Shown here piece by piece: positions 154-23,719 of a stretch of 64,000 nucleotides of DNA. Location: contig NZ_CP127385.1 in the NCBI RefSeq assembly GCF_030378205.1, positions 4,938,001 through 5,002,000 on the forward strand. Reading direction: 5' to 3'. Within the stretch, counting starts at the first letter, position 1. Each line of letters opens with the position of its first letter. The notes below the pieces were generated by a model that was not told where the DNA came from, made no database searches, and saw only the letters and a program-made list of their open reading frames with translations. The position numbers were made by a program, and so were the translations under genes. Source of the stretch: Bradyrhizobium sp. NP1 (GTDB taxonomy: Bacteria > Pseudomonadota > Alphaproteobacteria > Rhizobiales > Xanthobacteraceae).

Positions 154-1023
154 TCACCGCAAGACGGCAGCGACCGCAGAAGTCTGCGAAATACTGGTCT
201 CGTAAGCGCGTCCGCATGATTCACCCAACCAGTCCTTCTCCACCACGGGCAATGGGACGGCGCGCAACAACTTCTTCGTATAGTCGTTGCGCGGGTCATT
301 AAATACGCTCGTGCACTCTCCTGCCTCCACGACCCGCCCGTGCTGCATCACAATGACATGGTCGCAGAGCGTCCGAACGACCGAGAGATCGTGACTTATG
401 AAGACCATCCCGAGAGAACTCTCGGCCCGCAACTCCCGAAGCAGCGCTAGAACCTGCGCCTGTACCGATACGTCCAGTCCGGACACGATTTCGTCAGCCA
501 CGATGTAACTCGGTTCGAGCGCGATCGCTCGTGCAATCCCCACTCGTTGGCGCTGACCGCCGGAGAGCTGATGCGGGTAGCGATCGCCGTGGGTCGATCG
601 CATCCCTACGCGTTCTAGCAAAGCGAGAGCCCGCTTCCGTGCTTCACTTCGGCTCGCTCGACGATTGGCTACAAACGGATCTGAAAGAATGTCGATTATC
701 TTTCGTCGCGGGTTCAGCGAAGACTGGGAGTCCTGGAAAATCATCTGGACCTTTAAGCGAGCTTCTCGAAGTTGCTCCTTTGAGAGCGACGAGAAATCCT
801 TGCGCTCGAGCATCACTTTTCCCGCGACCGGGCGGTGGAGGCCGAGCAGCGAACGACCCAAGGTGCTTTTGCCAGAGCCAGACTCGCCGACAACGCCAAC
901 CACCTTTCCTCGATCAATTGTCAGATCGACGTCCTGGATAATTTGCAGTAGTGGCGCGCGTCCAAGCAGCGGCCTTCGGCTACGATCGGGCAGCGCGATC
1001 GAAACATTGATCGCTTCAAGCAC
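154..1023 (-). CDS. Peptide/opine ABC transporter ATP-binding protein (DppF/OppF type)
   Basis: This is the second ATPase of a dipeptide/oligopeptide-type importer and should sit on the cytoplasmic face of the permease pair. Walker A (GESGSGKST) lies near residues 46-54, followed by the Q-loop segment MIFQDSQSSLNP, the signature LSGGQRQR, the Walker B region IVADEIVSGLD and the H-loop FISHDLSVV. The C-terminus has the DppF-type stretch NDYTKKLLRAVP. I chose the GTG at 1023 because it overlaps the stop of the preceding ATPase gene and gives the usual family N-terminus; an upstream ATG at 1053 is possible. It is the last gene of the leftward operon. The transported substrate cannot be told from the sequence. 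Confidence 0.9.
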   Translation of the reverse strand: MLEAINVSIALPDRSRRPLLGRAPLLQIIQDVDLTIDRGKVVGVVGESGSGKSTLGRSLLGLHRPVAGKVMLERKDFSSLSKEQLREARLKVQMIFQDSQSSLNPRRKIIDILSDPFVANRRASRSEARKRALALLERVGMRSTHGDRYPHQLSGGQRQRVGIARAIALEPSYIVADEIVSGLDVSVQAQVLALLRELRAESSLGMVFISHDLSVVRTLCDHVIVMQHGRVVEAGECTSVFNDPRNDYTKKLLRAVPLPVVEKDWLGESCGRAYETSISQTSAVAAVLR

Positions 1024-1900
1024 GGCTATGCTCCAGATCAGACGCCATCGCATCGTTCCAAAGACTAGTAGTAAGTTCGCCAGGCACCGGATGTAGCCCG
1101 GCGTCCGGCCGATCAAGGCGAGGGGACGCCGCTATTAGCGCTTGAGTGTAGGGATGACACGGACGTCCAATAACGTCTTCCGTTCGACCTTGCTCAAGAA
1201 TGCGTCCGGCAAATATGACGGACACCTCGTCGCAAATCTTGGCGACCACGCCCAGGTCATGCGTGACGAATAGGACCGCAGTTCCTGTCTTGGTTTGCAG
1301 CTCTTTGATGAGCTTTAGAATCTCAAATTGAACCGTGACATCCAGCGCCGTTGTCGGCTCATCTGCCACAATCAGGGACGGCTTCCCGGCGAACGCAATT
1401 GCAATCACCACGCGCTGACACATTCCACCCGACAGCTCGTGCGGATATTGGCGAAGGACCCGTTCGGGAGCGCGGATGTGGACCATGCTCAGGAGTTCGA
1501 GGGCGTAGTCGCGCGCTCCTTTCTTATCGTAACCTAAACGTCGTGTAAGCACGTCGGTAATTTGGTTCTCAATGCGGAGAACCGGATTAAGGGCTGAGCT
1601 GGGCTGCTGCAAGATCATTGCGATTTGCTTTCCGAGCAACGCACGGCGGTTCTTCGCCGAAAGCTCGAGCAACTTCTGCCCTTGGAAAACTATATGCCCT
1701 GACGATACAACCGCGCTGCTTGGAAGTAGCCCGGTGATGGCTTTACCGACCATTGTCTTTCCGCCGCCGGATTCGCCCACCAACCCTCTGATTTCACCGG
1801 GTTTGATCTCGATATTCACACCACGCAAGATCGGCGTGGCGTGTCCTCCCGTTCCAATCTGGACCCGGAGGTCTGAAACTTGAAGAAGCGCTCCACTCAT
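1016..1900 (-). CDS. Peptide/opine ABC transporter ATP-binding protein (DppD/OppD type)
   Basis: First ATPase of the importer, 294 residues. It shows Walker A GESGGGKT (note GGG rather than GSG), MILQQPSSALNP, the signature LSGGMCQR, Walker B IVADEPTTALD, H-loop FVTHDLGVV, and the oligopeptide-family tail HPYTQALIAASPRLD. The start ATG at 1900 overlaps the stop of the permease gene as ATGA, so the two are translationally coupled. A longer open frame runs upstream to 2512, but it is out-of-frame permease sequence and is not credible protein. The signature has Cys in place of the usual Arg or Gln (GGMCQR), a minor oddity. Confidence 0.9.
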   Translation of the reverse strand: MSGALLQVSDLRVQIGTGGHATPILRGVNIEIKPGEIRGLVGESGGGKTMVGKAITGLLPSSAVVSSGHIVFQGQKLLELSAKNRRALLGKQIAMILQQPSSALNPVLRIENQITDVLTRRLGYDKKGARDYALELLSMVHIRAPERVLRQYPHELSGGMCQRVVIAIAFAGKPSLIVADEPTTALDVTVQFEILKLIKELQTKTGTAVLFVTHDLGVVAKICDEVSVIFAGRILEQGRTEDVIGRPCHPYTQALIAASPRLDRPDAGLHPVPGELTTSLWNDAMASDLEHSRA

Positions 1901-2748
1901 CGTCGGATAACCGGATCGAGTGCCAACCGAAGCCCATCGGCGAGCAGACTGAGCGTTAGAACGGACAGCGTGATTGCGACGATGGGTAGCGTCATGATCC
2001 ACCACGCCTGATATACGTAATTTCTTCCGTCTGCTAAAATTCCACCCCACGTGGCCATGTCGCTTGTACTGAACCCAATGAACGCAAGGATCGCCTCTAC
2101 GACAATGGCGCGCCCCATTTCCAGGGCCAGAAGCGCCAACACCATTGGAACGATATTTGGCAGCAGTTCCTGGAACAAGATCCGGAACCAGCGATAACCC
2201 AGCAGGTGCGCTGCCGTTATGAAGTCCTGTTCGCGTAGCACCAAAACCTCGGCTCGAACAACGCGGGCAAATCTGGTCCACCCGATTAAGGCGATCGCGA
2301 AGACGACGGCATAAAGCCCTGGGCCAACGACCGCGACGAGCACAATAGCCAGAAGCATGGGCGGGAAAGCCATGAAAATCTCGATGACGCGACTTAGAAC
2401 TGCATCCGTCCCTCCCCCTAGATAGCCAGCTACTAGCCCGACGATCACGCCAGCGATCCCTGAAAGAGCGGCTCCCAAAACCATTACGATCAACACGGGC
2501 CGCGCGCCCCATACCAGCCGCGAAAGCAGATCACGACCTAAGCTATCCGTTCCAAGCAGGTACGACGAGTCGTGGCCCGGCAGCCAGAACGGCGGGAGGT
2601 TCTGAGCGAAGAGACTTTGATCGAGCGGATCCTGGAGCGGCAGCAACGGCGCCGCTAGCGCGATAGCCGCAATGGCCGCAAATCCTAGACCTCCGACCAA
2701 CAGTTTAGGATTGGCAGAGGCAAGCTCAACTTGTCGTATGAGATTCAT
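1897..2748 (-). CDS. ABC transporter permease, DppC type
   Basis: Inner-membrane permease of 283 residues. An N-terminal membrane segment (GFAAIAAIALAAPLLPL) is followed by the DppC-family extracytoplasmic motif LLGTDSLGRDLLSRLVWGAR. The core then has about five helices and the EAA loop region (EVLVLREQDFITAAHLLGYRW) that contacts the ATPases. The ATG at 2748 overlaps the stop of the upstream permease as TGATG. A frame extends upstream to 2799 but would lie inside that permease. It pairs with the DppB-type permease as the translocation pore. Confidence 0.9.
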   Translation of the reverse strand: MNLIRQVELASANPKLLVGGLGFAAIAAIALAAPLLPLQDPLDQSLFAQNLPPFWLPGHDSSYLLGTDSLGRDLLSRLVWGARPVLIVMVLGAALSGIAGVIVGLVAGYLGGGTDAVLSRVIEIFMAFPPMLLAIVLVAVVGPGLYAVVFAIALIGWTRFARVVRAEVLVLREQDFITAAHLLGYRWFRILFQELLPNIVPMVLALLALEMGRAIVVEAILAFIGFSTSDMATWGGILADGRNYVYQAWWIMTLPIVAITLSVLTLSLLADGLRLALDPVIRR

Positions 2749-3755
2749 CAATCTAGCCGCACTCTGGGATTGATCAGCCCGTAGCTCATGTCGATGCATA
2801 TGTTGACCAAGATGAAGACAACCGCGAAAATGATGGTGATACCCTGCATCAACGGAAGATCACGGTTGATGGCGGCGCCGAAGAGCATGTTCCCAATTCC
2901 GGGGTAGGCGAAGATTAGTTCGATCAGCACCGTGCCACCAATCAGCAATGTGAACTGGGTACCCGTGATCGTAATGGCCGGAATGAGCGCATTTGGAAGC
3001 GCATGTCTCAACAGGACGTAGAGCGGGGAAAATCCCTTGGCCCGCGCCAGAAGCACATAGTCCTGATTGATTGCATCCAGCAGTGAGCTCTTCAGGACGC
3101 GCCCTATGACAGCCGTTAGGGGTAGAGCTAGCGATACTGCCGGAAGAAACATGTGACGCAGCACCTCCGAAAGTTCGGAGAACCTACCGGTGAACAAACT
3201 CTCGAAGAGGTAAAACTGCGTGTGAAACACCGCAGCATTTGAAGGATCTGTCCGTCCCGAAATTGGAAACAGCGGTATAGATACGCTCAACAACAGAATG
3301 AGCAGCAACGCCCAGAGAAACTCAGGGAGAGCCAACGCTAAGGCGTTAGCTGTATCCACAGCGACCTCAGGCCAGCGGCTCCGCCAGTAAACGGCGATTA
3401 GCGCAAAGGAAACACCCAATACAGTCGCGATGAAGAGCGCCAGAATAGCGAGCTCTAGAGTTGCAGGGAGCCGCCCCATTATCAACTCGAGCACATCCTG
3501 ATGCAGACTGATTGATGTCCCCAAGTTCCCCGTCGAAACACTCTTCAGAAAATAGAGAAACTGGACAGGTATCGATCGGTCTAACCCGTAGGCTTCGCGC
3601 AACTTGGCAATGTCCTCAGGCGACGCCTCCCCCGAGATCATCATCGAGATCGGATCCCCGGGAACGACTCGGATCAGGACAAACACAACGACCATGACGC
3701 CGAGCAGCGTCGGCAAAGCCATTGCCAACCTTCTTAGTAAGTAAGCTAATCGCAT
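2748..3755 (-). CDS. ABC transporter permease, DppB type
   Basis: Inner-membrane permease of 335 residues and first gene of the four-gene importer operon. Diagnostic features are the N-terminal segment RLAMALPTLLGVMVVVFVLI, the motif VVPGDPI, the DppB linker region (LREAYGLDRSIPVQFLYFL) and the EAA-type loop DYVLLARAKGFSPLYVLLRHALPNA. The ATG at 3755 gives a normal family start; a GTG at 3770 in the same frame is an alternative. The matching solute-binding protein is not adjacent but is probably the gene ending at 9376, which is controlled by the same type of operator. Confidence 0.9.
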   Translation of the reverse strand: MRLAYLLRRLAMALPTLLGVMVVVFVLIRVVPGDPISMMISGEASPEDIAKLREAYGLDRSIPVQFLYFLKSVSTGNLGTSISLHQDVLELIMGRLPATLELAILALFIATVLGVSFALIAVYWRSRWPEVAVDTANALALALPEFLWALLLILLLSVSIPLFPISGRTDPSNAAVFHTQFYLFESLFTGRFSELSEVLRHMFLPAVSLALPLTAVIGRVLKSSLLDAINQDYVLLARAKGFSPLYVLLRHALPNALIPAITITGTQFTLLIGGTVLIELIFAYPGIGNMLFGAAINRDLPLMQGITIIFAVVFILVNICIDMSYGLINPRVRLD

Positions 3756-4039: not shown

Positions 4040-4068
4040 ACTGTATCTCTTTTATTTGCGACTTACAA
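4040..4068 (-). promoter_or_regulatory. Promoter with operator palindrome for the leftward ABC transporter operon
   Basis: Read on the minus strand, TTGTAA (4068-4063) and TACAGT (4045-4040) form -35 and -10 hexamers exactly 17 bp apart. The operator-like palindrome TTGCG-ACT-TACAA at 4056-4068 covers the -35. The same arrangement occurs at 8.4 and 12.2-12.4 kb. The rest of the 3756-4143 spacer holds the opposite promoter and a short direct repeat of GAGCACC near 3810; I see no gene there. Confidence 0.6.
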
Positions 4069-4071
4069 CAA

Positions 4072-4100
4072 CTGTGATTCACAACTAAATTAGGCTAGCG
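4072..4100 (+). promoter_or_regulatory. Second operator copy and likely promoter for the deacetylase gene
   Basis: The palindrome CTGTG-ATT-CACAA (4072-4084) is centred 16 bp from the operator of the divergent promoter, about one and a half helical turns away. By analogy with the other copies its first half would act as the -35. The matching -10 position (CTAGCG, 4095-4100) is poor, so the exact promoter is uncertain, but the operator match is good. Confidence 0.5.
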
Positions 4101-4143
4101 TGTCCGCTTTCGAGGCAGCCATCCGGAAGCAAGGAGATTATTC

Positions 4144-5097
4144 GTGCTGCAATACAGCTACAGGCCGCAATTTCCTGAAACCGACGTCCAGCGACAGGGT
4201 GCCGACCAAACATGGATTGACTATCTTCCGATCACAGAGCGACCGCCGCTCAAATGGCCCGGTGGCGCTCGCATGGCCGTGATGGTTTGCCCAAACGTGT
4301 TGTATTACGAGTTGATGCCGCCCCGCGATCCGTGGATTGACCCGTGGGCTCGCATGACCCCGGACGTGATGATGTATGGACGTCAGGAATTCGGCGCTCG
4401 CGTCGGATTCTGGAGAATGGTCGATGTGCTCGACAAGTACAATTTGCCGTGCACGGCTGTCCTAAATGTCGCCGCCCTCGCGAAGTTTCCCGAGATTCGC
4501 AATGCTCTCGTGGAACGCAAATGGGACATTCTCGGGCACGGCATGTACAATACACGCTTCATCTGTGGATACAGCGAGGAGCAGGAGCGTCAGTACTATC
4601 GGGACATGCGACGGATCGTATTCGACGAAACGGGAGTGGACATGAAGGGCATGGGGGGACCCGGCCCTCAAGCTGCCACTGAGAATACTCCCGATCTACT
4701 GGCTGAAGAGGGGTTCTGGTACTACAGTGATTTCTTTCATGATGACCAACCTTTTCCCATCCGAGTGCGCTCGAACAGGTTGATCTCGATGCCCTACTCA
4801 GTTGAGAGCAACGATGTCCCCGTGCTTGCGACTGCGTACGAGGCTGACGATTTCGCCGATCTGGTGAAGAGGCAATTCGACCGTCTTTACACTGAAGGAG
4901 GCCGCATAATGTGCTTCACGGTCCATCCAGCACTCATCGGCCAGGCTCAACGAGCGAAGTACCTCGATGCGGCCCTGCAGCATATCACGTCTCAATCAGA
5001 CGTGTGGTTCGCTACGGGGAGGGAAATAGCGGACTACTACCTGACTCACTGCTATGAATCGGTAGTGAGACTTCTATCGACTTGGCAGAATGTCTAG
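4144..5097 (+). CDS. Polysaccharide-deacetylase (NodB-fold) family hydrolase, PuuE-like
   Basis: A 317-residue protein of the group that includes the metal-independent allantoinase PuuE and other cyclic-amide or N-acyl hydrolases. Family marks are the opening PPLKWPGGARMAVMVCPNVL, the helix ARVGFWRMVDVLDKY, the strand TAVLNVAALAKFP, the segment ILGHGMYNTRF, and the late FTVHPALIGQAQR. It starts at GTG 4144 behind a strong AAGGAG site (4131-4136). It faces away from the ABC operon across a shared operator region and is followed by marR. Its neighbours favour hydrolysis of a small C-N bond substrate rather than a polysaccharide, but that is inference. Confidence 0.85.
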   Translation: MLQYSYRPQFPETDVQRQGADQTWIDYLPITERPPLKWPGGARMAVMVCPNVLYYELMPPRDPWIDPWARMTPDVMMYGRQEFGARVGFWRMVDVLDKYNLPCTAVLNVAALAKFPEIRNALVERKWDILGHGMYNTRFICGYSEEQERQYYRDMRRIVFDETGVDMKGMGGPGPQAATENTPDLLAEEGFWYYSDFFHDDQPFPIRVRSNRLISMPYSVESNDVPVLATAYEADDFADLVKRQFDRLYTEGGRIMCFTVHPALIGQAQRAKYLDAALQHITSQSDVWFATGREIADYYLTHCYESVVRLLSTWQNV

Positions 5098-5266
5098 GCG
5101 AGATCCCGGCCCTGAAGTGCCCGGGAGCGCGCATTTTCGCGCGGGTTCTGCCCTAATATGCCTTTTCCTAGTTGCGAGGGGGGGCTTCTCGGTCTAGTTC
5201 TGGTCGAGCGCCGATTAGACCCTTCCACCAGCGCTTTACTCTATGAACCTATAACTGGATTATCTG

Positions 5267-5767
5267 ATGGCCCTCAAAACCAAACCTCGAGAGGAGGCTG
5301 ACAATATCCGCTTGGAACTAGCGGAACGCTCCTTCTATCGTTTTTCCCTCCTAGCCGCTCAGATCAATAGAGCTATCGGTCGCGCCTACGTACAGCGTTA
5401 TGGTCGTCCTGCCCATGGATGGAGGGTTCTTACAGTTCTCGGAAATTTTGGTCCTTTATCCGCGACAGAGATTACGCACCGCAACACTCTCGAAACCGAT
5501 AAGGTTACGCGTATCGTCGATAGCTTGGTGGAACAGGGCCTTGTGACCAGGCAACAGGATAGCGAAGATCGTCGAAGGGTCATCGTTGCACTCACCGCCA
5601 AAGGAAAGCGCATCTACGTCCAAATTGAACAGATGATCGGTGAGATGGAGCACGAGTTTTTGATCGTTCTTTCAAACCAAGAGCGCGAGATGCTCTACGA
5701 TATCCTGGACCGGCTCAAGCAGCGCGGCGACCAGGTATTTCGCACAGTGAGCCGCTGGGCCACTTAG
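5267..5767 (+). CDS. MarR family transcriptional regulator
   Basis: A 166-residue winged-helix repressor. The DNA-binding part runs from about residue 45 to 110: LSATEITHRNTLETDKVTR is the recognition-helix region and SEDRRRVIVALT is the beta-wing with the DxRR signature of MarR proteins. The flanking N- and C-terminal helices form the dimer interface. It is the only regulator gene in the first 13 kb. It is therefore the natural candidate to bind the TTGYG-NNN-CRCAA palindromes found at four intergenic places around it. I see no copy of that palindrome directly upstream of its own start. Confidence 0.9.
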   Translation: MALKTKPREEADNIRLELAERSFYRFSLLAAQINRAIGRAYVQRYGRPAHGWRVLTVLGNFGPLSATEITHRNTLETDKVTRIVDSLVEQGLVTRQQDSEDRRRVIVALTAKGKRIYVQIEQMIGEMEHEFLIVLSNQEREMLYDILDRLKQRGDQVFRTVSRWAT

Positions 5768-5826
5768 CTAGAATTGTTCCGTCGGAGTGTGTCGAAACGA
5801 ACTCCGCATTTCGTACTCCTCCCTGC

Positions 5827-7053
5827 TTACGGAGAGGCGACGAAAGTCTTCAGCGGAATTGACTTATCGGTCGCCTGATCGATTGGAATTGAGGCCTCAG
5901 CAGCTATTAGCTTTCGAGCGGCCATATGCTCGGCAGGCTTGTTGACGGACTCGACGACTTTGAGCCGGCCGTCGCGATCGTATCCAAGTACCGAGAATGC
6001 ACGGTCAGAAAGGTCGCCGCGCACCGCGAACCTATCGCAGTTCGACCAGATGCCAGCAATTTGGAGCTTGAGATCGGATTGGTCGCTCCAAAACCATGGC
6101 ACCGCATCATAGGCCGCTTTCTTTCCGGTCAGGCGGCGCGCGACCGCCTTAGCTTGGTCAAGGGCATTTTGCACACACTCCAAGCGAGCAAGGCCCCCTG
6201 GCACGAATTTGTTTGGGTGTCGTGTACAGTCGCCGACGGCCGAAATGGAATCGTCCGCTGTCAACAAATCCGAATCGACAATGATTCCGTTATCGCAAGG
6301 CAGGCCGGCCTCAATCGCCAAACTGTCTTCCGCTGTGGTGCCGATGCCTGCAACCACGAGGTCTGCCTGCATCGCCAAACCATCAGACAATCGGAGTTCA
6401 AACTCAGAGCCACACGATCGAATGCCAACAACAGTCCTCGAGAGTCTGATATTGACGCCCATCCTTCGGTGCTCGGCCTCGAAGAACGAAGATATGAGCG
6501 GGCTCACACTCCGGGCCAGAAGTCGATCGCTTTGCTCTACGACATGAGGTTCGCACTCCATCTGCAAGGCCACAGCAGCGAACTCTAAACCGATAAAACC
6601 AGCTCCGATGATCACGACCTTCTTTGCCTTCGTCAGACGATCGCGCAAAGTTTCCGCATCCGGCAAACTTCCGAGATAGTTAATCTTGGCGCCATCTGTT
6701 GCGAACGGTAGCCGCCGTTGGCGAGATCCAGTCGCCAAAATGAGATGCCCATAAGAAAGCGTAGCCCCGGTTTGGAAGCGAAGGGCTTTTTGGTGCCTAT
6801 CAATGCGAACTGCTTTTCCGTGAAGAAGTTCGATGCCTCGCTGCGCGTAGAATCCCTCTCCACGAAGTACAAGCCCACCCGCATCCACCTCGCCCTTCAT
6901 GAACGCCTTGGACAATGGCGGGCGTTGGTACGGAAGGTTCTGCTCGCCATTTACGAGCCGAACCGGTCCGTCGAAGCCCTCATCTCTGAGGGCTGCGGCG
7001 GCGCCCACGCCGGCATGACCAGCGCCTAGAATTACAACCGGTTCGGCGACCAT
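5827..7053 (-). CDS. FAD-dependent ferredoxin/rubredoxin reductase-type oxidoreductase
   Basis: A 408-residue pyridine-nucleotide-disulfide-type reductase like those that feed electrons to Rieske oxygenases. The N-terminal FAD dinucleotide fold is VVILGAGHAGVGAAAALR, followed by the family stretch NLPYQRPPLSKAFMKG. The NAD(H) fold is VVIIGAGFIGLEFAAVALQ near the middle, and the second FAD contact is ISAVGDCTRHPN. The C-terminal domain has WFWSDQSDLKLQIAG. I use the ATG at 7053; a GTG at 7068 overlapping the oxygenase stop is an alternative. It is the second gene of a two-gene operon and should be the electron donor to the oxygenase upstream. No separate ferredoxin gene lies in this operon. 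Confidence 0.88.
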   Translation of the reverse strand: MVAEPVVILGAGHAGVGAAAALRDEGFDGPVRLVNGEQNLPYQRPPLSKAFMKGEVDAGGLVLRGEGFYAQRGIELLHGKAVRIDRHQKALRFQTGATLSYGHLILATGSRQRRLPFATDGAKINYLGSLPDAETLRDRLTKAKKVVIIGAGFIGLEFAAVALQMECEPHVVEQSDRLLARSVSPLISSFFEAEHRRMGVNIRLSRTVVGIRSCGSEFELRLSDGLAMQADLVVAGIGTTAEDSLAIEAGLPCDNGIIVDSDLLTADDSISAVGDCTRHPNKFVPGGLARLECVQNALDQAKAVARRLTGKKAAYDAVPWFWSDQSDLKLQIAGIWSNCDRFAVRGDLSDRAFSVLGYDRDGRLKVVESVNKPAEHMAARKLIAAEASIPIDQATDKSIPLKTFVASP

Positions 7054-7067
7054 CGATGCCCGCAGCA

Positions 7068-8378
7068 CTACTGAGCCATGATCACATTCGCGGTCGACAA
7101 GTGTCGCTCATCGACACCCAAGGACCGCTCGTAGTCCTCCTGTGCCTTTACGACTTCCTGCCAAGGCTTTCCGGTTGGAAGATCAAATGAACAAGCACGC
7201 TGGTTATAGTCGAGCGAGGGATCCTGGCCCGGCAGCGGCTTTCCTTCATCCATCTCCTTGAGCTTGTTCAACAAGAGCTTACGATAAAACATCACCGCCT
7301 TGTCGCTGGTCCCAAGGTGTTCTTTCGTGCGATCAACGATGGGCAGCATGCTTTCTTGGACAACGCGATCCTGGACGGCAGCACCAGACACACCTGAGAA
7401 GTTTCCGCGCTTCATTCTCTCGCGGTCCTGCAAGTGCATGTTGGCTAAATTATGCGGCGTTTTGTACTCCGGTGGCGAGGTCCGATGGCCCCAGTTCGAG
7501 TACGCAGCCTCCTTATCGATCGGCTTTTCGAAGTCAAAGTGGATGTAGAAGGTATAGCAGTTGTGGTCGTCGATGGGATGCCACGCCTTAAACAGCCTGG
7601 ACTCCCGCGGGCCAGTCGCAATGTAGCAATAGAATGGTGCGATCCACTCAGTTGAGCGGACATAGTGCACGTCCGGCTTATCGGTATTGCGAATCGCGCC
7701 CACCCGCATGAGGTACGGCGTCTCCTCGCAATGGATGACCGGCGTACCGTCCGACATCAAATGAGCGATCGACTGCCAACCCGCACCAGCCCAACTTTTT
7801 TTGTCATCGAGATCGAAGTCGCGATGCAGATAATTCGGGTGGGCCGGATCCAGATCGCCTTCAACGCCCTGCAAGTAGTTGCTCGCCTGATGCATCTTCA
7901 CGACAAGCAGCTGGCTTTCGGGCAGATCCAGCCACGGAAACTTGGGGAACGGCGGCTCGAGCTCGGGCGGCCCCATATACGCCCAAAGAAGCTGCCCAGC
8001 CTCCCTAACCGGATAAGAGACGTGCTTAAGCTTTTTGGCGAACGTGCGAGTTGGCGGCTCGGGGGGAGATTCCAGCACGTAGCCACATCCCATCTTCCAC
8101 CCGTGATAGAGACACCGAAGGCCGTCCTCTTCGTTTCGGCCGTATACCAGCGAAGCTCCGCGATGCGGGCAATACTCACCAACAAGACCGACCTTCCCAT
8201 TGGGATCGCGAAACGCGACGAGGGACTCGCCCAGCAGCTTCACTCGGACTGGCGCACCGCCCGGCTCAGCGATTTGCTCCAGCTTGGCCGCGGGAATCCA
8301 GTACCGCCGCATGAAGCGCCCCATGGGAGTTCCAGGGCCCACCTGCGTGAGCGCCATATTGTCTTCATGTCTCAGCAT
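7068..8378 (-). CDS. Rieske [2Fe-2S] aromatic oxygenase, phthalate-dioxygenase-type alpha subunit
   Basis: Terminal oxygenase of 436 residues. The N-terminus has the phthalate-oxygenase-group opening MLRHEDNMALTQVGPGTPMG. The Rieske cluster ligands are CPH (in EYCPHRGASLVYG) and CLYHGW about 20 residues later. The mononuclear iron site is visible as EGDLDPAHPNYLHRD, carrying the two histidines. The start at 8378 has a GGAGGG site six bases upstream. Enzymes of this group hydroxylate aromatic or N-heterocyclic rings or demethylate ethers. It is transcribed from a promoter whose -35 is covered by the shared palindrome and is co-transcribed with the reductase. Confidence 0.92.
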   Translation of the reverse strand: MLRHEDNMALTQVGPGTPMGRFMRRYWIPAAKLEQIAEPGGAPVRVKLLGESLVAFRDPNGKVGLVGEYCPHRGASLVYGRNEEDGLRCLYHGWKMGCGYVLESPPEPPTRTFAKKLKHVSYPVREAGQLLWAYMGPPELEPPFPKFPWLDLPESQLLVVKMHQASNYLQGVEGDLDPAHPNYLHRDFDLDDKKSWAGAGWQSIAHLMSDGTPVIHCEETPYLMRVGAIRNTDKPDVHYVRSTEWIAPFYCYIATGPRESRLFKAWHPIDDHNCYTFYIHFDFEKPIDKEAAYSNWGHRTSPPEYKTPHNLANMHLQDRERMKRGNFSGVSGAAVQDRVVQESMLPIVDRTKEHLGTSDKAVMFYRKLLLNKLKEMDEGKPLPGQDPSLDYNQRACSFDLPTGKPWQEVVKAQEDYERSLGVDERHLSTANVIMAQ

Positions 8379-8411
8379 AGAGGACCCTCCGTTCGAAACC
8401 TGTTGCTGACG

Positions 8412-8440
8412 ATACTAGCTCCTTTATTTGTGAAACACAA
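8412..8440 (-). promoter_or_regulatory. Promoter/operator of the Rieske oxygenase operon
   Basis: The perfect palindrome TTGTG-AAA-CACAA (8428-8440) supplies the minus-strand -35 TTGTGT (8440-8435). TAGTAT (8417-8412) is the -10 with a 17-bp spacer. This is the clearest copy of the operator that recurs in the first 13 kb. The remainder of the 8379-8798 spacer carries only the membrane-protein fragment listed next. Confidence 0.7.
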
Positions 8441-8512
8441 CTATCGTGGATCTTCTGATGAACGATGGCTGCACAAACGATGCGATATCTTCAGCGCAAA
8501 GCGGCATGTCGT

Positions 8513-8656
8513 TCACAACGACCATAAGAACAAGAAGCCAACCGCATAGGCGACTGCGAGGGCTCCTGCGACAGCAAGAGTCCCGAGGACGTCTTTGCTG
8601 AAGGACCTATAACCCTTCTCTTCTGGCGCCGGAAAAGAGCTCCCACATGCCTCAAC
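8513..8656 (-). pseudogene. Possible 3' remnant of a membrane protein gene
   Basis: An open frame of 47 codons without any ATG, GTG or TTG start before its hydrophobic part ends at a TGA (8513-8515). The visible product has a polar stretch (PEEKGYRSFSKDV) followed by one membrane helix (LGTLAVAGALAVAYAVGFLF). It lies between the flavin reductase stop and the Rieske promoter. It looks like the last helix of a transporter whose body is gone, but the family cannot be named and it may be chance. Confidence 0.25.
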
Positions 8657-8798
8657 TCATTGAATCGTGAGCACTCGCTTCAACACCACAGCATTCACCT
8701 GCGCTGCCCCCGCACCGACGCCTCTTCCAGAGCGCACGTACAGCTCAAGACCTTCCGCCGATGACGTTGGGCAACGCTACTGACTCCATGCGTGGAGA

Positions 8799-9335
8799 TC
8801 AGCTGGCTAATCTTCGATAAGCTCCGTCGAAGTATAGAAGCGGATCCTTCTGCTCCACCCCGGTATCGACAACTCGACCTACAAAGATCGTGTGTGTATG
8901 CACATCGATTCTCGTTTCCAGTTCGCACAACAAGTAAGCTATCGCCTCCGAAAGGACCGGCGTCCTTCCGTCTACCAACTTGTGCGGTACCGCTTCAAAT
9001 GGGTTCATCTTTTTCGACGCAAACAGCTCCGCGAGCCCTTCTTGAGACGCTCCCAACACGCTCACGGAAAATGCACAACTACCCTCTACAAAGGCATGCG
9101 TCCTGGACGTCTTATTGAGAATGATCAATAGAGTTGGCGGGTCTGCGCTAGCGCTGCATATTGCCGTGGCGGTCATCCCATGCAATCCATCAGGACCGCC
9201 AACGCCAACAACGCAAACGGCACCGGTCAGCTTCCTCATCACGCCCTTAAACGTTGAGCTGTCTACGCCTACGTTTTGCGCCTCGTTCTGAAAATGCATT
9301 CCCAGGACGCGGTCCCCTGTTCGCTCAATTTTCAT
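8799..9335 (-). CDS. Flavin reductase-like FMN-binding protein (RutF/HpaC type)
   Basis: A 178-residue flavin reductase of the split-barrel fold that makes reduced flavin for a partner monooxygenase. Characteristic segments are FKGVMRKLTGAVCVVGV, GMTATAICSASADPPTLLI and the cofactor-contacting NKTSRTHAFV, then CAFSVSVLGASQEGLAELF. The C-terminal half has LETRIDVHTHTIFVGRV. It is the third gene after the LLM monooxygenase and a solute-binding protein, 40 bp behind the latter, so it very likely serves that monooxygenase. An internal ATG 36 bp downstream is an alternative start. Confidence 0.88.
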   Translation of the reverse strand: MKIERTGDRVLGMHFQNEAQNVGVDSSTFKGVMRKLTGAVCVVGVGGPDGLHGMTATAICSASADPPTLLIILNKTSRTHAFVEGSCAFSVSVLGASQEGLAELFASKKMNPFEAVPHKLVDGRTPVLSEAIAYLLCELETRIDVHTHTIFVGRVVDTGVEQKDPLLYFDGAYRRLAS

Positions 9336-9375
9336 GTCGACTGACTCGAAGACCTCGCCGTTACGGCTCGCCGCC

Positions 9376-10911
9376 TTACGCCTTGGAAAAGAGCGACGGC
9401 ATTACATATCCCGCCACATGGGGCTTGAACTTCAGTGTCGGCTTGTAGACGACTGGCTGGAAGTACTGAAACAGAGGGATGATGTAAGCATTGTCAGAGA
9501 CTGTCTGATTGATCGCTGCGTACTGCTCGAGGCGCTTGCCTTCGTCCTTCTGTACAAACGTGGCCTTCAACGCGTCGTCCAGCTGGCCGCCCTTCCATGA
9601 AGAGTGTGCGCTGTTCGTGATCAACGCTGTACCAAGTGAGCTTTCCGGATCAGCGGTCGAATTCCCCCAATCATAGAAGGCCGCCGGAGCCAGCTTGTGC
9701 TGCGCTCGCAGCTCGAAGTGCTTCGCAATCTCGTATACTTCGATATTCGCGTGGATCCCAACCTTTCTCCACATCTGGACGATCGCCTGGATGATCTCGT
9801 AATCCTTGGGCTTGTAACCCTTCGTTGTCTGAATCGTCAGCTCCACAGGCTTGCTCGGCGAATAGCCCGATTTGGCAAGCAGCTCGCTCGCCTTTGCCGG
9901 ATTGAAAGGCGTGTAGATCGATTGATCGAAGCCCTTGTACTCGGGAGCCAAAAGCGTCCCAAGCGGCTTTGCGTATCCGCGCAATAGACGTTCAACGATC
10001 GCCTTCTTGTCGATTGCAAAGACCGCGGCGCGCCGCACGTTATCATCGGCAAACGCGCCCTCGTTGTTCACGAAAATTAGAGCGACGTCGGCGATCGGGT
10101 AACAGCTGCCCGCAAGCCCGCGGCTTTTGAGCCGCTCGTACTCCTCATACGGAATATCGGAAGTTGCATCGGCACTTCCACGCTCAAGTTCAGCGACCCT
10201 GCTGGGCGAATCGGTGACGAATTTGAAAACCACCGTTTCAAACTCTGGCCGGCGTCCCCAATACTCACTGAACTTCTTCAAGCGGAGGAACGATCCGCGT
10301 TCGTACGTATCAAACATGTACGGCCCGGTTCCGATCGGCCTCTTCTCGAAGCCCTCAGCACCCACCTTCTCGTAGTACTTCTGCGGGAGCAGGTAGCAAC
10401 CGAGGAACGTGAAACGCTCGAGCATGTTTGCACGCCAAGGTGACACATCAAATGTGATTGTATTGCCATCGACAACAAAGTTCTTGTTACTTGCAAAGAT
10501 GGGGGCAAGCGGCGCCTTTGGATCAGTGAGGCGCTTCAAATTCCAGAGGACGTCATCGATCGTTACGGCTTCGCCATCGTGCCACTTCACGCCCGCACGG
10601 AGCGTCAAGAATATTTTCGATTTGTCTTCGTTCCAGCCAAACTGATCGATGACACCCGGACTGAGTGTAAGATCGGGGTTTTGGGTTATGTAAGGGTCAT
10701 AGATTGTCCGAAAGATGGACTGATTTCCGGGGCTCGTTGTCTGAGGACCGGTGTTGGGATCGAAGGCTGCCGGCGCAGCCGGGTAGGCGATTGTCAGAAC
10801 ATCTGCAGGAGCGCTTTTGGCCTCCCCATCAAACAAAGCAAATTCCCCTCCGACCGCTAGCGTACTCAAGCCCGCAAGCCGCAGCAAAGAACGTCGTGAC
10901 AAATTGCTCAT
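9376..10911 (-). CDS. ABC transporter substrate-binding protein, family 5 (peptide/opine type)
   Basis: A 511-residue periplasmic binding protein of the DppA/OppA class. It starts at ATG 10911 behind GAGGAG. The N-terminus carries a twin-arginine-like signal (SRRSLLRLAGLSTLAVGG). Mature motifs are NPDLTLSPGVIDQFGWNED, LRAGVKWHDGEAVTIDDV and RPIGTGPYMFDTYERG, the standard SBP_bac_5 landmarks. It lies between the LLM monooxygenase and flavin reductase genes, not with the permeases at 0.2-3.8 kb. The shared operator suggests it is their binding protein. This split arrangement is uncommon. Confidence 0.9.
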   Translation of the reverse strand: MSNLSRRSLLRLAGLSTLAVGGEFALFDGEAKSAPADVLTIAYPAAPAAFDPNTGPQTTSPGNQSIFRTIYDPYITQNPDLTLSPGVIDQFGWNEDKSKIFLTLRAGVKWHDGEAVTIDDVLWNLKRLTDPKAPLAPIFASNKNFVVDGNTITFDVSPWRANMLERFTFLGCYLLPQKYYEKVGAEGFEKRPIGTGPYMFDTYERGSFLRLKKFSEYWGRRPEFETVVFKFVTDSPSRVAELERGSADATSDIPYEEYERLKSRGLAGSCYPIADVALIFVNNEGAFADDNVRRAAVFAIDKKAIVERLLRGYAKPLGTLLAPEYKGFDQSIYTPFNPAKASELLAKSGYSPSKPVELTIQTTKGYKPKDYEIIQAIVQMWRKVGIHANIEVYEIAKHFELRAQHKLAPAAFYDWGNSTADPESSLGTALITNSAHSSWKGGQLDDALKATFVQKDEGKRLEQYAAINQTVSDNAYIIPLFQYFQPVVYKPTLKFKPHVAGYVMPSLFSKA

Positions 10912-11018
10912 GTTCGGCTCCTCTTGTGCTCCACGGACCCTCCAACTCGGATCGCGCGCGACTGACCTTCGACAACAACAACACCTCAGGTACGAAGCCC
11001 CCAAGACTTCCCTTCGAC

Positions 11019-12140
11019 CTATTGTGCACGCAGACCTTTTCGGGCAAGACGTGGCAGCACCTCTTGGACGAAGAACGGCATTTCCTCGAGGTAATTCACG
11101 AATGAAATTGCGACCCCGTCGAATCCCGCGTCGGAAAGTCGAGCAAGCTGCTCGGCCACGTCATCGGGAGATCCGCATAGAGAGTAGCTTCCGCCGTAGC
11201 CGAGCACTGCCCTCACCTGCTGTTGATGACGGACATACTCTGTCTCCGCGGATGAACGGGTCTTCGAGCCGAATGCACCAGTGTACAATCTGTACTGCTC
11301 GTCCAACGCTTCCCAGTCGGCGTTGTTCACGCAGTGCATCGCATATTGCTGGGCAAGTTCACGCGTTTCCCTGCATACCACTGATGCCGGGATCCAAACA
11401 TGGATGTTGCGACCAGCAGCTTTCGCCAGGGCTTTTGTTTCAGTGATGCGATCGCGACTCTCCTCGGGCGTCCGGCAATAGTCGTAATGCAAATCGACGT
11501 TGCGGATCGCAAAAGCGCGGCCTGTTTCGGACGCCCCAGCGCTCATCGTAATCGGGGCAACTCCGCCGTGCGGAGCCGGCTCTCCTGTCAGTTTCTTAAG
11601 ATCAAAAAATTCGCTCGTATAGTCTTGCGGCTCCTTAGCGGCCCACACTGACTTTACGACGTTGAACCAATCCTCGCCGTACTTGTAGCGCCGGTCGTGA
11701 GCAAGAGCTTGAACGCCGAACATATCGAATTCGCTCTTATTCCAGCCGCAAACAATGTTGAGGCCAAACCGACCCCGGCCGACATGATCGGCTGTTACCA
11801 TCTGCTTCGCGGCAAATACGGGATGTACCATTGGCGCATGGACGGTGCCGAAGACAGTGATCCTCGTGGTCTTCGCCAACAGGGCGGTCGCCCAGGTGAG
11901 CGTTTCCCACGATTTCGAATTGACGTTCGAGGCGCCACCGAAACCGCTCCAGCGCGCAATCGGCACCATGCACTCAAATCCGGCCTGGTCGGCGAAAATG
12001 GCGAGACGCTCGTTCCCCTCCCAGCTCCCATTCCATCGCTCCGGAAGCCTGATAAAGGCCAACCCTCCGCTGCAGTTCGCTCCGAAGAGACCCAGCTTCA
12101 GCTTGTTGCCGTTGAGCAAACCTGGATTTCGCGTAACCAT
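11019..12140 (-). CDS. LLM-class flavin-dependent monooxygenase, RutA/SfnG-like
   Basis: A 373-residue bacterial-luciferase-fold monooxygenase using reduced flavin and oxygen. RutA-like landmarks are the N-terminal region with GGLAFIRLPERW, ADQAGFECMVPIARWSGFGG, GRGRFGLNIVCGWNKSEFDMFG, HDRRYKYGEDWF and the late GSYSLCGSPDDVAEQLARL. Relatives cleave uracil (RutA) or dimethyl sulfone (SfnG). The ring- or amide-opening reaction of RutA would fit the hydrolase and oxygenase neighbours, but the substrate is not determined. ATG 12140 is preceded by GAGGGA. It is first in an operon with the binding protein and flavin reductase. Confidence 0.9.
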   Translation of the reverse strand: MVTRNPGLLNGNKLKLGLFGANCSGGLAFIRLPERWNGSWEGNERLAIFADQAGFECMVPIARWSGFGGASNVNSKSWETLTWATALLAKTTRITVFGTVHAPMVHPVFAAKQMVTADHVGRGRFGLNIVCGWNKSEFDMFGVQALAHDRRYKYGEDWFNVVKSVWAAKEPQDYTSEFFDLKKLTGEPAPHGGVAPITMSAGASETGRAFAIRNVDLHYDYCRTPEESRDRITETKALAKAAGRNIHVWIPASVVCRETRELAQQYAMHCVNNADWEALDEQYRLYTGAFGSKTRSSAETEYVRHQQQVRAVLGYGGSYSLCGSPDDVAEQLARLSDAGFDGVAISFVNYLEEMPFFVQEVLPRLARKGLRAQ

Positions 12141-12184
12141 GTCGATCCCTCACCGCCGGTCACCGTCGCATTCTCGCCAGGAAG

Positions 12185-12212
12185 CTTATAGAGTTTTATT
12201 TGCGAAACGCAA
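12185..12212 (-). promoter_or_regulatory. Promoter/operator of the LLM monooxygenase operon
   Basis: The perfect palindrome TTGCG-AAA-CGCAA (12200-12212) contributes the minus-strand -35 TTGCGT (12212-12207). TATAAG (12190-12185) is the -10 at 16 bp. It begins about 45 bp upstream of the monooxygenase start. Together with the divergent copy at 12422 it accounts for the 12141-12657 spacer; the rest of that spacer shows no gene. Confidence 0.68.
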
Positions 12213-12421
12213 TCATATAATTGTGCACCCAACTACCTGGTTAAACCGACTCGGATGACAGCCCCACCCGTCTCACACGTAGGACCCCGCGAGTGCCTGC
12301 CCCAGTCAAAGGGCAATTCGTCCAAATGGCAGGTCTGAGGGATTTTGTGGCAAGGCGGCATTGCCCGAGGGGCGCCCAAGAAGCGCCCCTATTAACCCGT
12401 TTGCTGCGCGTCCCCTTTTCA

Positions 12422-12450
12422 TTGCGTAACACAAATATGTCTGATTAAAG
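12422..12450 (+). promoter_or_regulatory. Promoter/operator upstream of the SDR gene
   Basis: The near-palindrome TTGCG-TAA-CACAA (12422-12434) begins with a -35-like TTGCGT, and TTAAAG (12445-12450) follows after 17 bp. It faces right, away from the LLM operon. The gene it would serve starts at 12658, so the leader would be about 200 nt, which is long. I see no convincing riboswitch or reading frame in that leader. Confidence 0.5.
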
Positions 12451-12657: not shown

Positions 12658-13449
12658 ATGGTGACTCCAAACCAAGAGGTTGGCGGCAAGGTCGTTCTTG
12701 TCACAGGCAGCAACGGTGATATCGGACGAGAACTTGTTCTCGCCTTTCGTGCAGCTGGAGTGGCGGAAGTCATCGAGGTCGGCGGCCGCAATGCGCCGGA
12801 TGGCGTCAATCGTCTTGACGTGACAGACGCTGCCGGTGTCTTTTCGCTGGCATCTTCGCTTGAAGGAAAAGTCGACATATTAGTTAATAGTGCCGGCATT
12901 AACGACAATGTCGGCATACTCAGCGCGGAGTCCGCCGATCATGCTCGTCGAGAGATGGAGGTCAATTATTTTGGCCTGTTGAATGTGGTTCGTGCATTTG
13001 CGCCCCCAATGCGGGATCGCCGACAGGGCGTAATCGTAAACATGCTGAGCATCTTAAGTCACGTGAACTTGCCGATTTGCGGTTCGTATTGCGCCAGTAA
13101 GGCTGCGGCTTACTCGCTGACGCAAGCAATTCGAGGAGAGCTTGCGCCGTACAATGTACGAGTTTGCGGCGTTTTCCCTGCTGCGGTCGACACTCGCATG
13201 AGCATCAAGTCTCCGCCACCAAAGCTCGCCCCAAAAGAGCTCGCTAACCACGTAATCCTGGCCCTACGGGAGGGTATTGAGGATCTGTATCCAGGAGTGG
13301 TGGCTGAGCGCATGCACGCCGCACTGCGGTCCGCCCCAAAATCTTTGGAAAAGGCGCTATCTGCACGTCTGCCCGAAGGCACGCTTCAATCGACGGCGCG
13401 AGGTCTTCTCGCTCGCACCATTATCAAGCGGCCATCGGACTTGACATAG
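12658..13449 (+). CDS. Short-chain dehydrogenase/reductase (SDR)
   Basis: A 263-residue NAD(P)-dependent oxidoreductase. The cofactor motif is TGSNGDIG near residues 18-25, followed by NSAG, the catalytic Ser in NMLSILSH, and YCASK (catalytic Tyr and Lys). The start is fixed by AAGGAGG seven bases before ATG 12658; an open frame extends upstream but has no support. It stands alone on the plus strand, opposite the LLM operon across a shared regulatory region, and probably oxidises or reduces an intermediate of the same pathway. Confidence 0.88.
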   Translation: MVTPNQEVGGKVVLVTGSNGDIGRELVLAFRAAGVAEVIEVGGRNAPDGVNRLDVTDAAGVFSLASSLEGKVDILVNSAGINDNVGILSAESADHARREMEVNYFGLLNVVRAFAPPMRDRRQGVIVNMLSILSHVNLPICGSYCASKAAAYSLTQAIRGELAPYNVRVCGVFPAAVDTRMSIKSPPPKLAPKELANHVILALREGIEDLYPGVVAERMHAALRSAPKSLEKALSARLPEGTLQSTARGLLARTIIKRPSDLT

Positions 13450-17833: not shown

Positions 17834-18040
17834 TCCCAGCCTCCCACATTTCCGCGCAACGATACGCGCCTGGCGGTTCGGCGCCGAGCAAGGCGTGTTC
17901 CCGCTTGCCCAACATCCCGTCATTTCTGGCCCCTCCATCGAAATCTCCGGTCAACCACTTTGTCAAGAACAAAAAAGAATTGTGAATCGCTATTCTACTT
18001 TGTAGTCTCCCAGTCGACCCTGCCGAAGGAGGCGCGAGTA

Positions 18041-19063
18041 ATGCGCGTGATGGAGCTCAAATCCGATTGGGGACTTAAGAATTTGACAGCCGGCGAACGG
18101 CGCGCGCCGCCGCTGCCGGGACGGCGCGAGGTTCTTGTCGAAATGCAGGCCGCCTCGATCAACTTCCGCGATTACGTGATGGTCGCGGGCGGCTACGGGC
18201 GGCGCGGCGGCAAGCTGCCGATGGTCCCGGTCTCCGACGGCGCCGGCCGCGTCGTCGCTGTCGGTCAGGACGTCAGCACCTTGGCTGTGAACGACATCGT
18301 ATGCCCGAACTTCGCGCAGACCTGGATTGACGGCGCCCTGCAGCCGGACACCTGGAAGGGAATGTTAGGCGGCTATTGCGACGGTGTCCTGCAGGAGACC
18401 ATGCTGTTCCCAGAACACTGTGTGGTTCGTGCCGCCTCCCACCTTAGCGCGGTTGAAGCCGCCACCCTGCCCTGCGCAGCGCTGACGGCGTGGAGCGCGC
18501 TCACGACGGCCGGCATCAAGCCTGGCAGCACAATCCTGACCCAAGGCACCGGCGGCGTCTCGCTTTTCGCACTGCAATTTGCCAAGCAGTTCGGCGCCAA
18601 GGTCATCATTACCTCGTCGAGTGACGAGAAGCTCAAGCGCGCGCGCGAGCTTGGAGCGGACGAAACGATCAACTATCGGACGGAGCCAGCGTGGGAAAAA
18701 CGCGCGCGCGAGATTGCCGGCCCGTCCGGCATTGACCTGGTCATGGAGTTGGCAGGCACGCTCACGCATTCGATCAAGGCCGTCAGGGAGGAAGGCACGG
18801 TCGCCATGATTGGCGTACTCGACGGGCCGTCAGCGACGATACCGTTGGGGCAAGTGGTGACGCGAGCGATCCGGCTGCAGGGCGTGACGGCGGGACCAAA
18901 GCGCGCGTTCGAGCAGATGATGCGCGCTGTCGATCTGCACAAGCTCAGGCCGATCTATCAGATATCCGGCCGTTCGCTCACCGACGCGCCATCGGCAATT
19001 GCGCAGATCGCGAAAGCAAAGCACTTCGGCAAGATCTGCCTCGAATTCGGGAGCAGCTTGTGA
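18041..19063 (+). CDS. Zinc-independent MDR oxidoreductase (quinone oxidoreductase-like)
   Basis: A 340-residue medium-chain dehydrogenase/reductase. The GroES-like N-domain has the segment VLVEMQAASINFRDYVMVAG, and the Rossmann domain has TQGTGGVSLFALQFAKQFGA. The cysteines that would bind structural zinc are absent, as in quinone oxidoreductases and enoyl reductases. AAGGAGG lies eight bases before ATG 18041. It diverges from the LivK-type gene across about 200 bp and overlaps the next gene. It may reduce a double bond of the CoA-linked substrate. Confidence 0.85.
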   Translation: MRVMELKSDWGLKNLTAGERRAPPLPGRREVLVEMQAASINFRDYVMVAGGYGRRGGKLPMVPVSDGAGRVVAVGQDVSTLAVNDIVCPNFAQTWIDGALQPDTWKGMLGGYCDGVLQETMLFPEHCVVRAASHLSAVEAATLPCAALTAWSALTTAGIKPGSTILTQGTGGVSLFALQFAKQFGAKVIITSSSDEKLKRARELGADETINYRTEPAWEKRAREIAGPSGIDLVMELAGTLTHSIKAVREEGTVAMIGVLDGPSATIPLGQVVTRAIRLQGVTAGPKRAFEQMMRAVDLHKLRPIYQISGRSLTDAPSAIAQIAKAKHFGKICLEFGSSL

Positions 19064-19851
19064 TCACGCCGGACGTGCTGTTTGAGCGACGTGGACAGGT
19101 CGCGCAGGCCACGCTCAACAGGCCGGATTCGCTTAACGCCATCACGTTACCGATGATCGTACATTTCGAGGGCATCCTGGATGAGGTTGCAAGGGACAAT
19201 GCGCTTTGCGCGTTGGTTATTGCGGGCTCCTCCCGGACATTCTCTGCCGGCGCCGACCTCACGGCATTGGCCGTCGACCAGGACGGAATACCAGTCAGTG
19301 GGCCCGATTCCTTTCCCGACCGGCTGATGCGCTTCCTTTGCAAGCTTGAGAGGTGCCCAGTTCCGGTGATCGCTGCCGTTCAGGGTTGGGCCCTCGCAGG
19401 TGGACTCGAAATTGTCCTTTGTTGCGATCTGGTTATTGCCGGAACGAGCGCAAGGTTCGGCGACGCTCACGCAAAGTATGGACTGCTGCCAAGCGGCGGA
19501 AGCTCAATCCGGCTTCCGCGACGGATCGGCGCGATGCGCGCCAGGGAGCTGATGTTCACCGGCGATTGGGTTACGGCAACCGCCATGCGCGAAGCCGGCC
19601 TTGTCACGCGCGTCGTCGATGACAGCGAAGTTGAGGCAGAGACGACCCGGCTGGCTGACACGCTCGCCGCCCGCAGCCCGTTGTGCCTGCGACGGATGAA
19701 ATCGCTCCTCACGCTCGGCAGCCAGCAAGGACTGCAGGAGGGACTTGCGGCCGAGCAACGCGAATGGGCCGCCCATGCCGCATCCGAGGACATGCGCGAG
19801 GGATTGTCAGCCTTCCGCGAAAAACGCCCGCCGCGCTTCACTGGATTCTGA
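19060..19851 (+). CDS. Enoyl-CoA hydratase/isomerase family protein (crotonase)
   Basis: A 263-residue crotonase-fold enzyme. The CoA-binding loop is SAGADLTAL and the oxyanion-hole region is WALAGGLEIVLCCDLVIAG with the first catalytic Glu. The second Glu of classical hydratases would fall in the FGQPE-like segment, but here it reads FGDAHAKYGLLP, with His at that place. It therefore belongs to a variant crotonase class and may be an isomerase or hydrolase rather than a hydratase. It starts at a GTG overlapping the MDR stop (GTGA). Confidence 0.85.
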   Translation: MITPDVLFERRGQVAQATLNRPDSLNAITLPMIVHFEGILDEVARDNALCALVIAGSSRTFSAGADLTALAVDQDGIPVSGPDSFPDRLMRFLCKLERCPVPVIAAVQGWALAGGLEIVLCCDLVIAGTSARFGDAHAKYGLLPSGGSSIRLPRRIGAMRARELMFTGDWVTATAMREAGLVTRVVDDSEVEAETTRLADTLAARSPLCLRRMKSLLTLGSQQGLQEGLAAEQREWAAHAASEDMREGLSAFREKRPPRFTGF

Positions 19852-19865
19852 CTGGAGGAAAAGCA

Positions 19866-21053: not shown

Positions 21054-21106
21054 ACCGAGAAGCAGAACAGTGCTCGCGATTGACTCTTGCAAGCTGGCTG
21101 GAGACT

Positions 21107-23434: not shown

Positions 23435-23719
23435 CTTTATACGTTCGATAATTTAGCTGTTTTGAAGCCAGCTAAGTCATTCAAATTTCATTTGTTTTCT
23501 AAAGAATCGATGCGGATTGGATCTGGCCGAAAGTGTGCGATTTCTGGTTAGCGACGCTCGAACGGCGCACGTTCGGCGGCTCAACTTAACGCCTTGCAGC
23601 AAGTTTTTTGTCGCAGACGCTCAAGACGTTAGCGGTGATACCGGTGTAATTCGTCTGTTATTCGACCAGTCGATCTGATAATTCGGGTCGATCGCAACCG
23701 AGCGCTTTTGGAGTCGACG

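Follow-up and report, generated by a model that had tools for sequence, protein, structure and literature searches.

A recurrent 13-bp inverted repeat as the probable operator of a MarR-family regulator in a catabolic-type gene cluster of Bradyrhizobium sp. NP1

The window analysed here, 64,000 nucleotides from the single 7.71-Mb contig of Bradyrhizobium sp. NP1 (NZ_CP127385.1, positions 4,938,001 to 5,002,000; genome label G000), holds a cluster of transport and oxidation genes around a gene for a MarR-family regulator, marR (5267..5767, plus strand; Pfam MarR, 4.6e-13). A 13-bp inverted repeat recurs upstream of several of these genes and is the subject of this analysis. On the same strand, deac (4144..5097) ends 169 bp ahead of marR and encodes a PuuE-like hydrolase of the polysaccharide-deacetylase type, with 122 bits for NCBIfam PuuE (under the 424.6 cut-off), PDB 3cl6 at 1.6e-22 and no Pfam family at 1e-3. 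On the minus strand, four open reading frames (ORFs; 154..3752) make up a dipeptide/oligopeptide-type ATP-binding cassette transporter; Pfam recognised three of the four, and ORF 1016-1960 was read from its translation. Beyond marR, likewise on the minus strand, lie a LigXa-type Rieske oxygenase (7068..8378; Pfam Rieske and LigXa_C; PDB 9ina, 3.8e-80) and, downstream of it, a ferredoxin-NAD reductase-like protein (5827..7068, from family scans). A luciferase-like flavin monooxygenase (LLM; 11019..12140, minus strand) is SfnG/RutA-like (Pfam Bac_luciferase; SfnG 194 bits, under the 382.95 cut-off) and is followed by a family-5 solute-binding protein (SBP5; 9376..10911, minus strand) and a flavin reductase (8799..9335, minus strand), with which the proposed LLM operon ends. 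The plus strand carries a short-chain dehydrogenase/reductase (SDR; 12661..13449; Pfam adh_short) and a unit of zinc-type dehydrogenase, enoyl-CoA hydratase and epoxide hydrolase (qor-ech-eph, 18041..21053, with qor starting at 18041). The cluster probably encodes a degradation pathway for some compound. We refrained from naming a substrate from the enzyme models, as PuuE, SfnG and RutA all score under their cut-offs.

A preliminary description of this DNA had listed five palindromes, two of them perfect, around MarR as the only regulator nearby. All five lie where it placed them; those at 8428, 12200 and 12422 match the loose pattern TTGYGNNNCRCAA exactly, and those at 4056 and 4072 depart from it by one mismatch each. 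The arms at 8428 and 12200 are indeed perfect inverted repeats. MarR is also the sole regulator among the ORFs scanned or read up to 21 kb, the next ones being a TetR (ORF 21080-21808) and a GntR (23708-24562).

Sites A and B (4056-4084) stand between the divergent dppB and deac, with their centres 16 bp apart. Site A (TTGCGACTTACAA, 4056..4068, minus strand) belongs to the leftward dppB promoter, with a -35 hexamer TTGTAA at 4068-4063 and a -10 hexamer TACAGT at 4045-4040; the dppB start is 316 bp away, which makes for a long leader. Site B (CTGTGATTCACAA, 4072..4084, plus strand) lies 72 bp upstream of the deac GTG. The Rieske promoter holds site C (TTGTGAAACACAA, 8428..8440, minus strand; -35 TTGTGT at 8440-8435, -10 TAGTAT at 8417-8412) and the LLM promoter site D (TTGCGAAACGCAA, 12200..12212, minus strand; -35 TTGCGT at 12212-12207, -10 TATAAG at 12190-12185). 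Site E (TTGCGTAACACAA, 12422..12434, plus strand) is found 239 bp upstream of the SDR ATG. A candidate site F, absent from the earlier list, precedes qor-ech-eph (TTGTGAATCGCTA, one mismatch, 17980..17992, plus strand); it lies 61 bp upstream of qor and provides a -35 TTGTGA (17980-17985) with a -10 TAGTCT (18003-18008) at 17 bp. For each gene the best match was sought in the 200 bp ahead of its start, extended to 300 bp for the SDR of the window, and compared with 2000 shuffles; gene starts for this, the permutation and the -10 tests were set by hand from ORF lists and translations. Equally good matches arose in 14 shuffles for site B before deac, in 3 for site F before qor and in 8 for the divergent bcaa-SBP gene, which uses site F too. 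Upstream of the flavin reductase, SBP5, caiB and acs of the window no site was found (best 3 or 4 mismatches). A further exact match to the loose pattern, also unlisted before (11500..11512, spacer GAT), is probably not an operator, since it falls inside the LLM coding sequence.

Exact matches to the loose pattern number four in the window where 0.37 are expected, and none of 100 shuffles reached four. Across the whole genome, the same pattern is only weakly enriched (33 places, 22 for the reversed control). It was therefore dropped as a genome-wide signal, and we adopted the form with an A/T spacer, TTGYGWWWCRCAA, which was chosen after the window sites had been seen and then tried on other genomes. 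Exact copies of this form number five in the genome. Three are the window sites 8428, 12200 and 12422; the remaining two lie within ORFs that look coding and were rejected as regulon members. A check for equally good sites elsewhere thus left the three cluster sites as the only ones of the five outside likely coding ORFs. At one mismatch, 38 places stand against 26 in the control.

The strongest evidence for a MarR regulon is comparative, namely the joint occurrence of MarR and Rieske genes together with the sites at Rieske promoters. In a family sample of 391 genomes, this one included, MarR was found at E <= 1e-30 in six: G000, G135 (92% identical), G017 (61%), G014 (63%), G004 (63%) and G052 (44%). 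Measured over the alignment, the five relatives are 92, 60, 60, 57 and 42% identical, respectively. The Rieske oxygenase, at E <= 1e-140, occurs in five of the 391, which is the MarR set without G052, so that MarR (57-92% identical) and Rieske relatives share the same five genomes. Beyond G000, no MarR at 1e-28 appeared in an order draw (1/397) or a class draw (1/385), with at most nine candidates per genome among the matches listed. From the few carriers in the family, order and class draws it follows that the cluster is rare in these draws. Searching genome contigs for related loci returned a single locus, apparently on the same contig as that of G135, and plasmids gave three MarR matches of 30-35% identity. 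At E <= 1e-25, relatives of this MarR amount to 115 proteins.

Exact A/T-spacer sites tend to go along with this MarR. The six MarR-bearing genomes hold 17 places in about 34 Mb (5, 2, 4, 0, 4 and 2), and ten same-genus genomes without a MarR match at 1e-30 hold 4 in about 69 Mb, these ten being hand-picked from same-genus matches and five of the six carriers belonging to other genera. The reversed control yielded 6 places against 12 sites in the five MarR-bearing relatives, and 16 against 4 in the ten genomes lacking MarR. We read 11 of the 17 as intergenic, one as unclear (G052, C164) and five as lying within ORFs; one site counted as intergenic (G004, C671) coincides with the beginning of an ORF that starts with TTG. 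Two of the four in the MarR-less genomes were read as intergenic.

Palindromes that had been expected to persist in related clusters are largely present: before the Rieske gene in five of five genomes (four exact), before the LLM in three of the four with a homologue in the fetched DNA, and before deac or its likely operon head in four of four (two of them weak). The exact Rieske sites of G000, G135, G017 and G004 were equalled in 0, 0, 1 and 0 of the 2000 shuffles, and the Rieske sites lie 54-92 bp before the start. For the LLM, the site is exact in G000 (no shuffle equally good) and has one mismatch in G135 (3 shuffles) and G014 (12). The one-mismatch site before deac recurs in G135 (18, next to 14 in G000). 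The SDR site, exact in G000 (no shuffle), has a counterpart with one mismatch 63 bp before the start of a 46% identical relative in G135 (10). Exact sites (1 shuffle each) also stand before a cyclase-like gene in G017 and in G004; the relatives' gene names (amidase, TauD, TctC, solute-binding proteins, the G017 cyclase) were read by eye, and the G004 cyclase alone was family-scanned. In pairwise promoter alignments with G135, sites A to D are conserved stretches amid diverged DNA. Site A differs by a single base although much of the surrounding promoter has diverged, and site B has the same letters. G004 keeps an exact Rieske site with Rieske and marR on separate contigs; three exact sites of this genome are spread over three contigs other than that of marR, one before Rieske, one flanked by the cyclase and a likely solute-binding protein gene, and one ahead of a different likely solute-binding protein gene.

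We further compared the repeat, on stretches of G135, G017 and G014, with 29 palindromes made by rearranging its half-site letters. At one mismatch, the motif occurred 11 times between genes and never in coding DNA in the joint set, against a permutation mean of 0.59 intergenic places (maximum 9). At two mismatches it reached 21 intergenic and 9 coding places (permutation mean 1.83, maximum 18). The two high permutations, YTGTG and TYGTG, contain the TTGTG half of the motif itself; the remaining 27 gave at most 4 intergenic places against 21. In the window itself, at one mismatch, the motif was found at 5 intergenic places and 1 coding place, and the permutations at no more than 3.

The regulator has the winged-helix MarR domain (PF01047, 49.3 bits, cut-off 24.6). 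Its best NCBIfam match is HpaR TIGR02337, and no equivalog model scores above its cut-off; we did not file the protein as HpaR because 55.8 bits fall far under the cut-off of 121.2. The nearest solved MarR by sequence is PDB 2fa5, a marR/emrR family transcriptional regulator (2.5e-23). The putative recognition-helix region reads TLETDKVTRIVDSL (K79, T81, R82), within which the segment K79-V-T-R82 would belong to the recognition helix by comparison with the MarR family. All seven aligned MarRs from site-bearing genomes retain KVTR, those of 44% and 37% identity among them. The two closest paralogues of the same genome (36% and 33%) have QVTR and TISR instead, and within 15 kb around them we found one two-mismatch match near one and none near the other.

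The first half of the repeat had been described as the -35 hexamer of four promoters, with a -10 hexamer at 16-17 bp. We scored -10 hexamers by our own weighted match to TATAAT at 16-18 bp (maximum 9) for 26 site-gene pairs, two sites being used both ways. The description is borne out for the transporter (TACAGT, 17 bp), Rieske (TAGTAT, 17 bp) and LLM (TATAAG, 16 bp) promoters, with 7/9 each. For the SDR the -10 is weak (TAAAGC at 18 bp, 5/9). The -35 geometry is good at the three leftward promoters, fair at qor and weak at the SDR. A score of at least 6/9 was reached by five of six pairs in the window and four of seven in G135. Over all pairs, the mean was 4.31 against 3.68 at shifted positions (p ~0.03, with overlapping control positions).

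We consider it probable that the 13-bp inverted repeat constitutes the operator set of the adjacent MarR, which would repress the cluster promoters by covering their -35 elements. Because the sites stand at cluster promoters and carriers of this MarR tend to have the site, it is very probably the protein's docking site; the proposed regulon is well supported by the comparative evidence. The operator, TTGYG-N3(A/T-rich)-CRCAA, would be bound by a dimer of the MarR encoded at 5267. Without inducer, the dimer would sit on the promoters of the transporter, deac, the Rieske-reductase pair, the LLM-SBP-flavin reductase unit and the SDR, and probably also on that of qor-ech-eph, and would block RNA polymerase by covering the -35 element. 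A pathway compound would then release MarR, and uptake and oxidation genes would be switched on together. The marR gene may itself be transcribed from the deac promoter.

Such a switch is of a familiar kind, a catabolic MarR operator set, of which this would be a new example. MarR dimers are described as setting their recognition helices into consecutive major grooves of palindromes, and MarR repressors as typically interfering with RNA polymerase (both in PMC5487221); usual MarR palindromes are given as 16-20 bp in PMC10458429. The closest parallel is CouR of Rhodococcus jostii RHA1 (PMC4737184), a MarR-family regulator of p-hydroxycinnamate catabolism, whose inverted repeat overlaps the predicted -35 of four promoters and has the same TTG-N7-CAA frame as the repeats here; repression by covering the -35 has been proposed for it. 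The CouR half-site is TTGA, whereas it is TTGYG here. One of the CouR boxes occupies the stretch separating the divergent genes couN and couR, but marR of the window lacks a site. CouR has p-coumaroyl-CoA as its ligand. By analogy, ligand-released repression through -35 occlusion would be the likeliest mode. PheR was dropped as a parallel, being an IclR repressor according to PMC13273656. Open-licence PMC papers contained no match to the six exact operator strings.

Several results weigh against this assignment. Across the whole window there is no excess of sites at one mismatch to the loose pattern (12 found, 9.95 expected). G014 has no exact site in its genome, and neither G135 nor G014 alone beats the reversed control (2 vs 2 and 0 vs 2). 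The sites are also not independent events, because the carrier genomes are related. Some sites in the relatives have two mismatches and are weak on their own, namely those of the G014 Rieske gene (125/2000 shuffles equally good), the G017 deac (89/2000) and the likely operon head in G014 (193/2000), and the LLM of G017 (45% identical) has none, with 5 mismatches at best. Permutations YTGTG and TYGTG equal the motif in two subsets, with 5 each in G017 plus G014 when one mismatch is allowed and 10 each in G135 when two are. A site at the regulator's own promoter, a frequent but non-defining trait of the family, is missing in G000, G135, G017 and G004; only G014 has one, with one mismatch (22 shuffles) and on a stretch common with the LLM. 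Around the G004 marR, no intergenic site lies within one mismatch, and its contig carries LysR- and IclR-like genes, as read by eye. Finally, none of the 13 site-gene pairs in G017, G014, G004 and G052 reaches 6/9 for a -10 at 16-18 bp. From the -10 scores it follows that the -35 reading is good only for this genome and its closest relative G135; one putative operator on the predicted -35 of several promoters, as first described, is clear in these two genomes and not in the four more distant ones.

The scarcity of sites at the marR promoters (one in five) would fit palindromes that serve another, unlinked regulator, for example a TetR or a different MarR, with the adjacent MarR being incidental. 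So would the separate contigs of Rieske and marR in G004, the second MarR of G135 (37% identical), 12 kb off and with similar sites around it, and the 21 further MarR-like matches in this genome at E <= 0.001, of which the two closest paralogues were looked at. Nevertheless, we regard this as unlikely, given that MarR and Rieske relatives occupy the same five of 391 genomes, that in G052, whose MarR is 44% identical, a gene that looks Rieske-type by eye is preceded by an exact site, and that the recognition-helix segment tracks the site. Moreover, no other regulator was noticed on reading, without a family scan, the ORFs listed for 20 kb of G017 and 13.5 kb of G014.

If MarR does bind these sites, it could in principle activate, as some MarR proteins do, and the restriction of well-spaced -10 hexamers to this genome and G135 would agree with that. 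However, the window sites sit on a -35-like hexamer rather than upstream of it, and most characterised MarRs repress (both statements on the family from PMC4737184), which makes activation quite improbable. That the repeat recurs by chance, owing to the A/T-richness of intergenic DNA, seems very improbable to us. The lack of a one-mismatch excess, the modest genome-wide count of the loose pattern and the high-scoring permutations YTGTG and TYGTG would be expected from it; against it stand the Rieske and LLM promoters of G000 and G135 (0, 0, 0 and 3 of 2000 shuffles equally good), the low intergenic counts of the other 27 permutations and the recurrence of the sites in other genomes.

Under the proposed repression by MarR, a regulator without an equivalog name gains a concrete candidate operator. 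This operator would link a peptide-type transporter, a PuuE-like hydrolase, a LigXa-type Rieske system, a flavin-dependent LLM monooxygenase and an SDR as parts of a single, probably co-regulated pathway. Fewer candidate substrates would then have to be considered, because the inducer should release MarR. We may also speculate, more tentatively, on a modular subfamily of MarRs in which the operator moves together with oxygenase and hydrolase cassettes while the surrounding transporters and enzymes are exchanged. Diverged MarRs (44% in G052, 37% for the G135 neighbour) keep KVTR and lie near the same operator. If this were true, the operator would be a tag that assigns unlinked genes, such as those on the three G004 contigs, to a single uncharacterised pathway, and operators would be common to two MarRs of the same genome.

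In G052 (L044:655-1665), an exact site precedes a gene that resembles a Rieske-type oxygenase, is split over two frames and shares its contig with the 44% MarR. In G135 (L039:900-12100), the related cluster has next to it another one that encodes a MarR of its own (37% identical); similar sites stand there upstream of genes for an SDR (907), a PuuE-like hydrolase (7037, with two mismatches) and an amidase-like protein (9642). In L041:13335-15208 and L042:3848-5718, two adjacent genes for PuuE-like hydrolases, close to an amidase-like gene, again accompany Rieske, a combination that may point to a cyclic amide or imide being hydrolysed. The cluster has a G+C content of 57.6% over the first 22 kb, against 63.2% in 24 scattered loci of the same genome, themselves picked by motif matches, and it may thus have been acquired from elsewhere.

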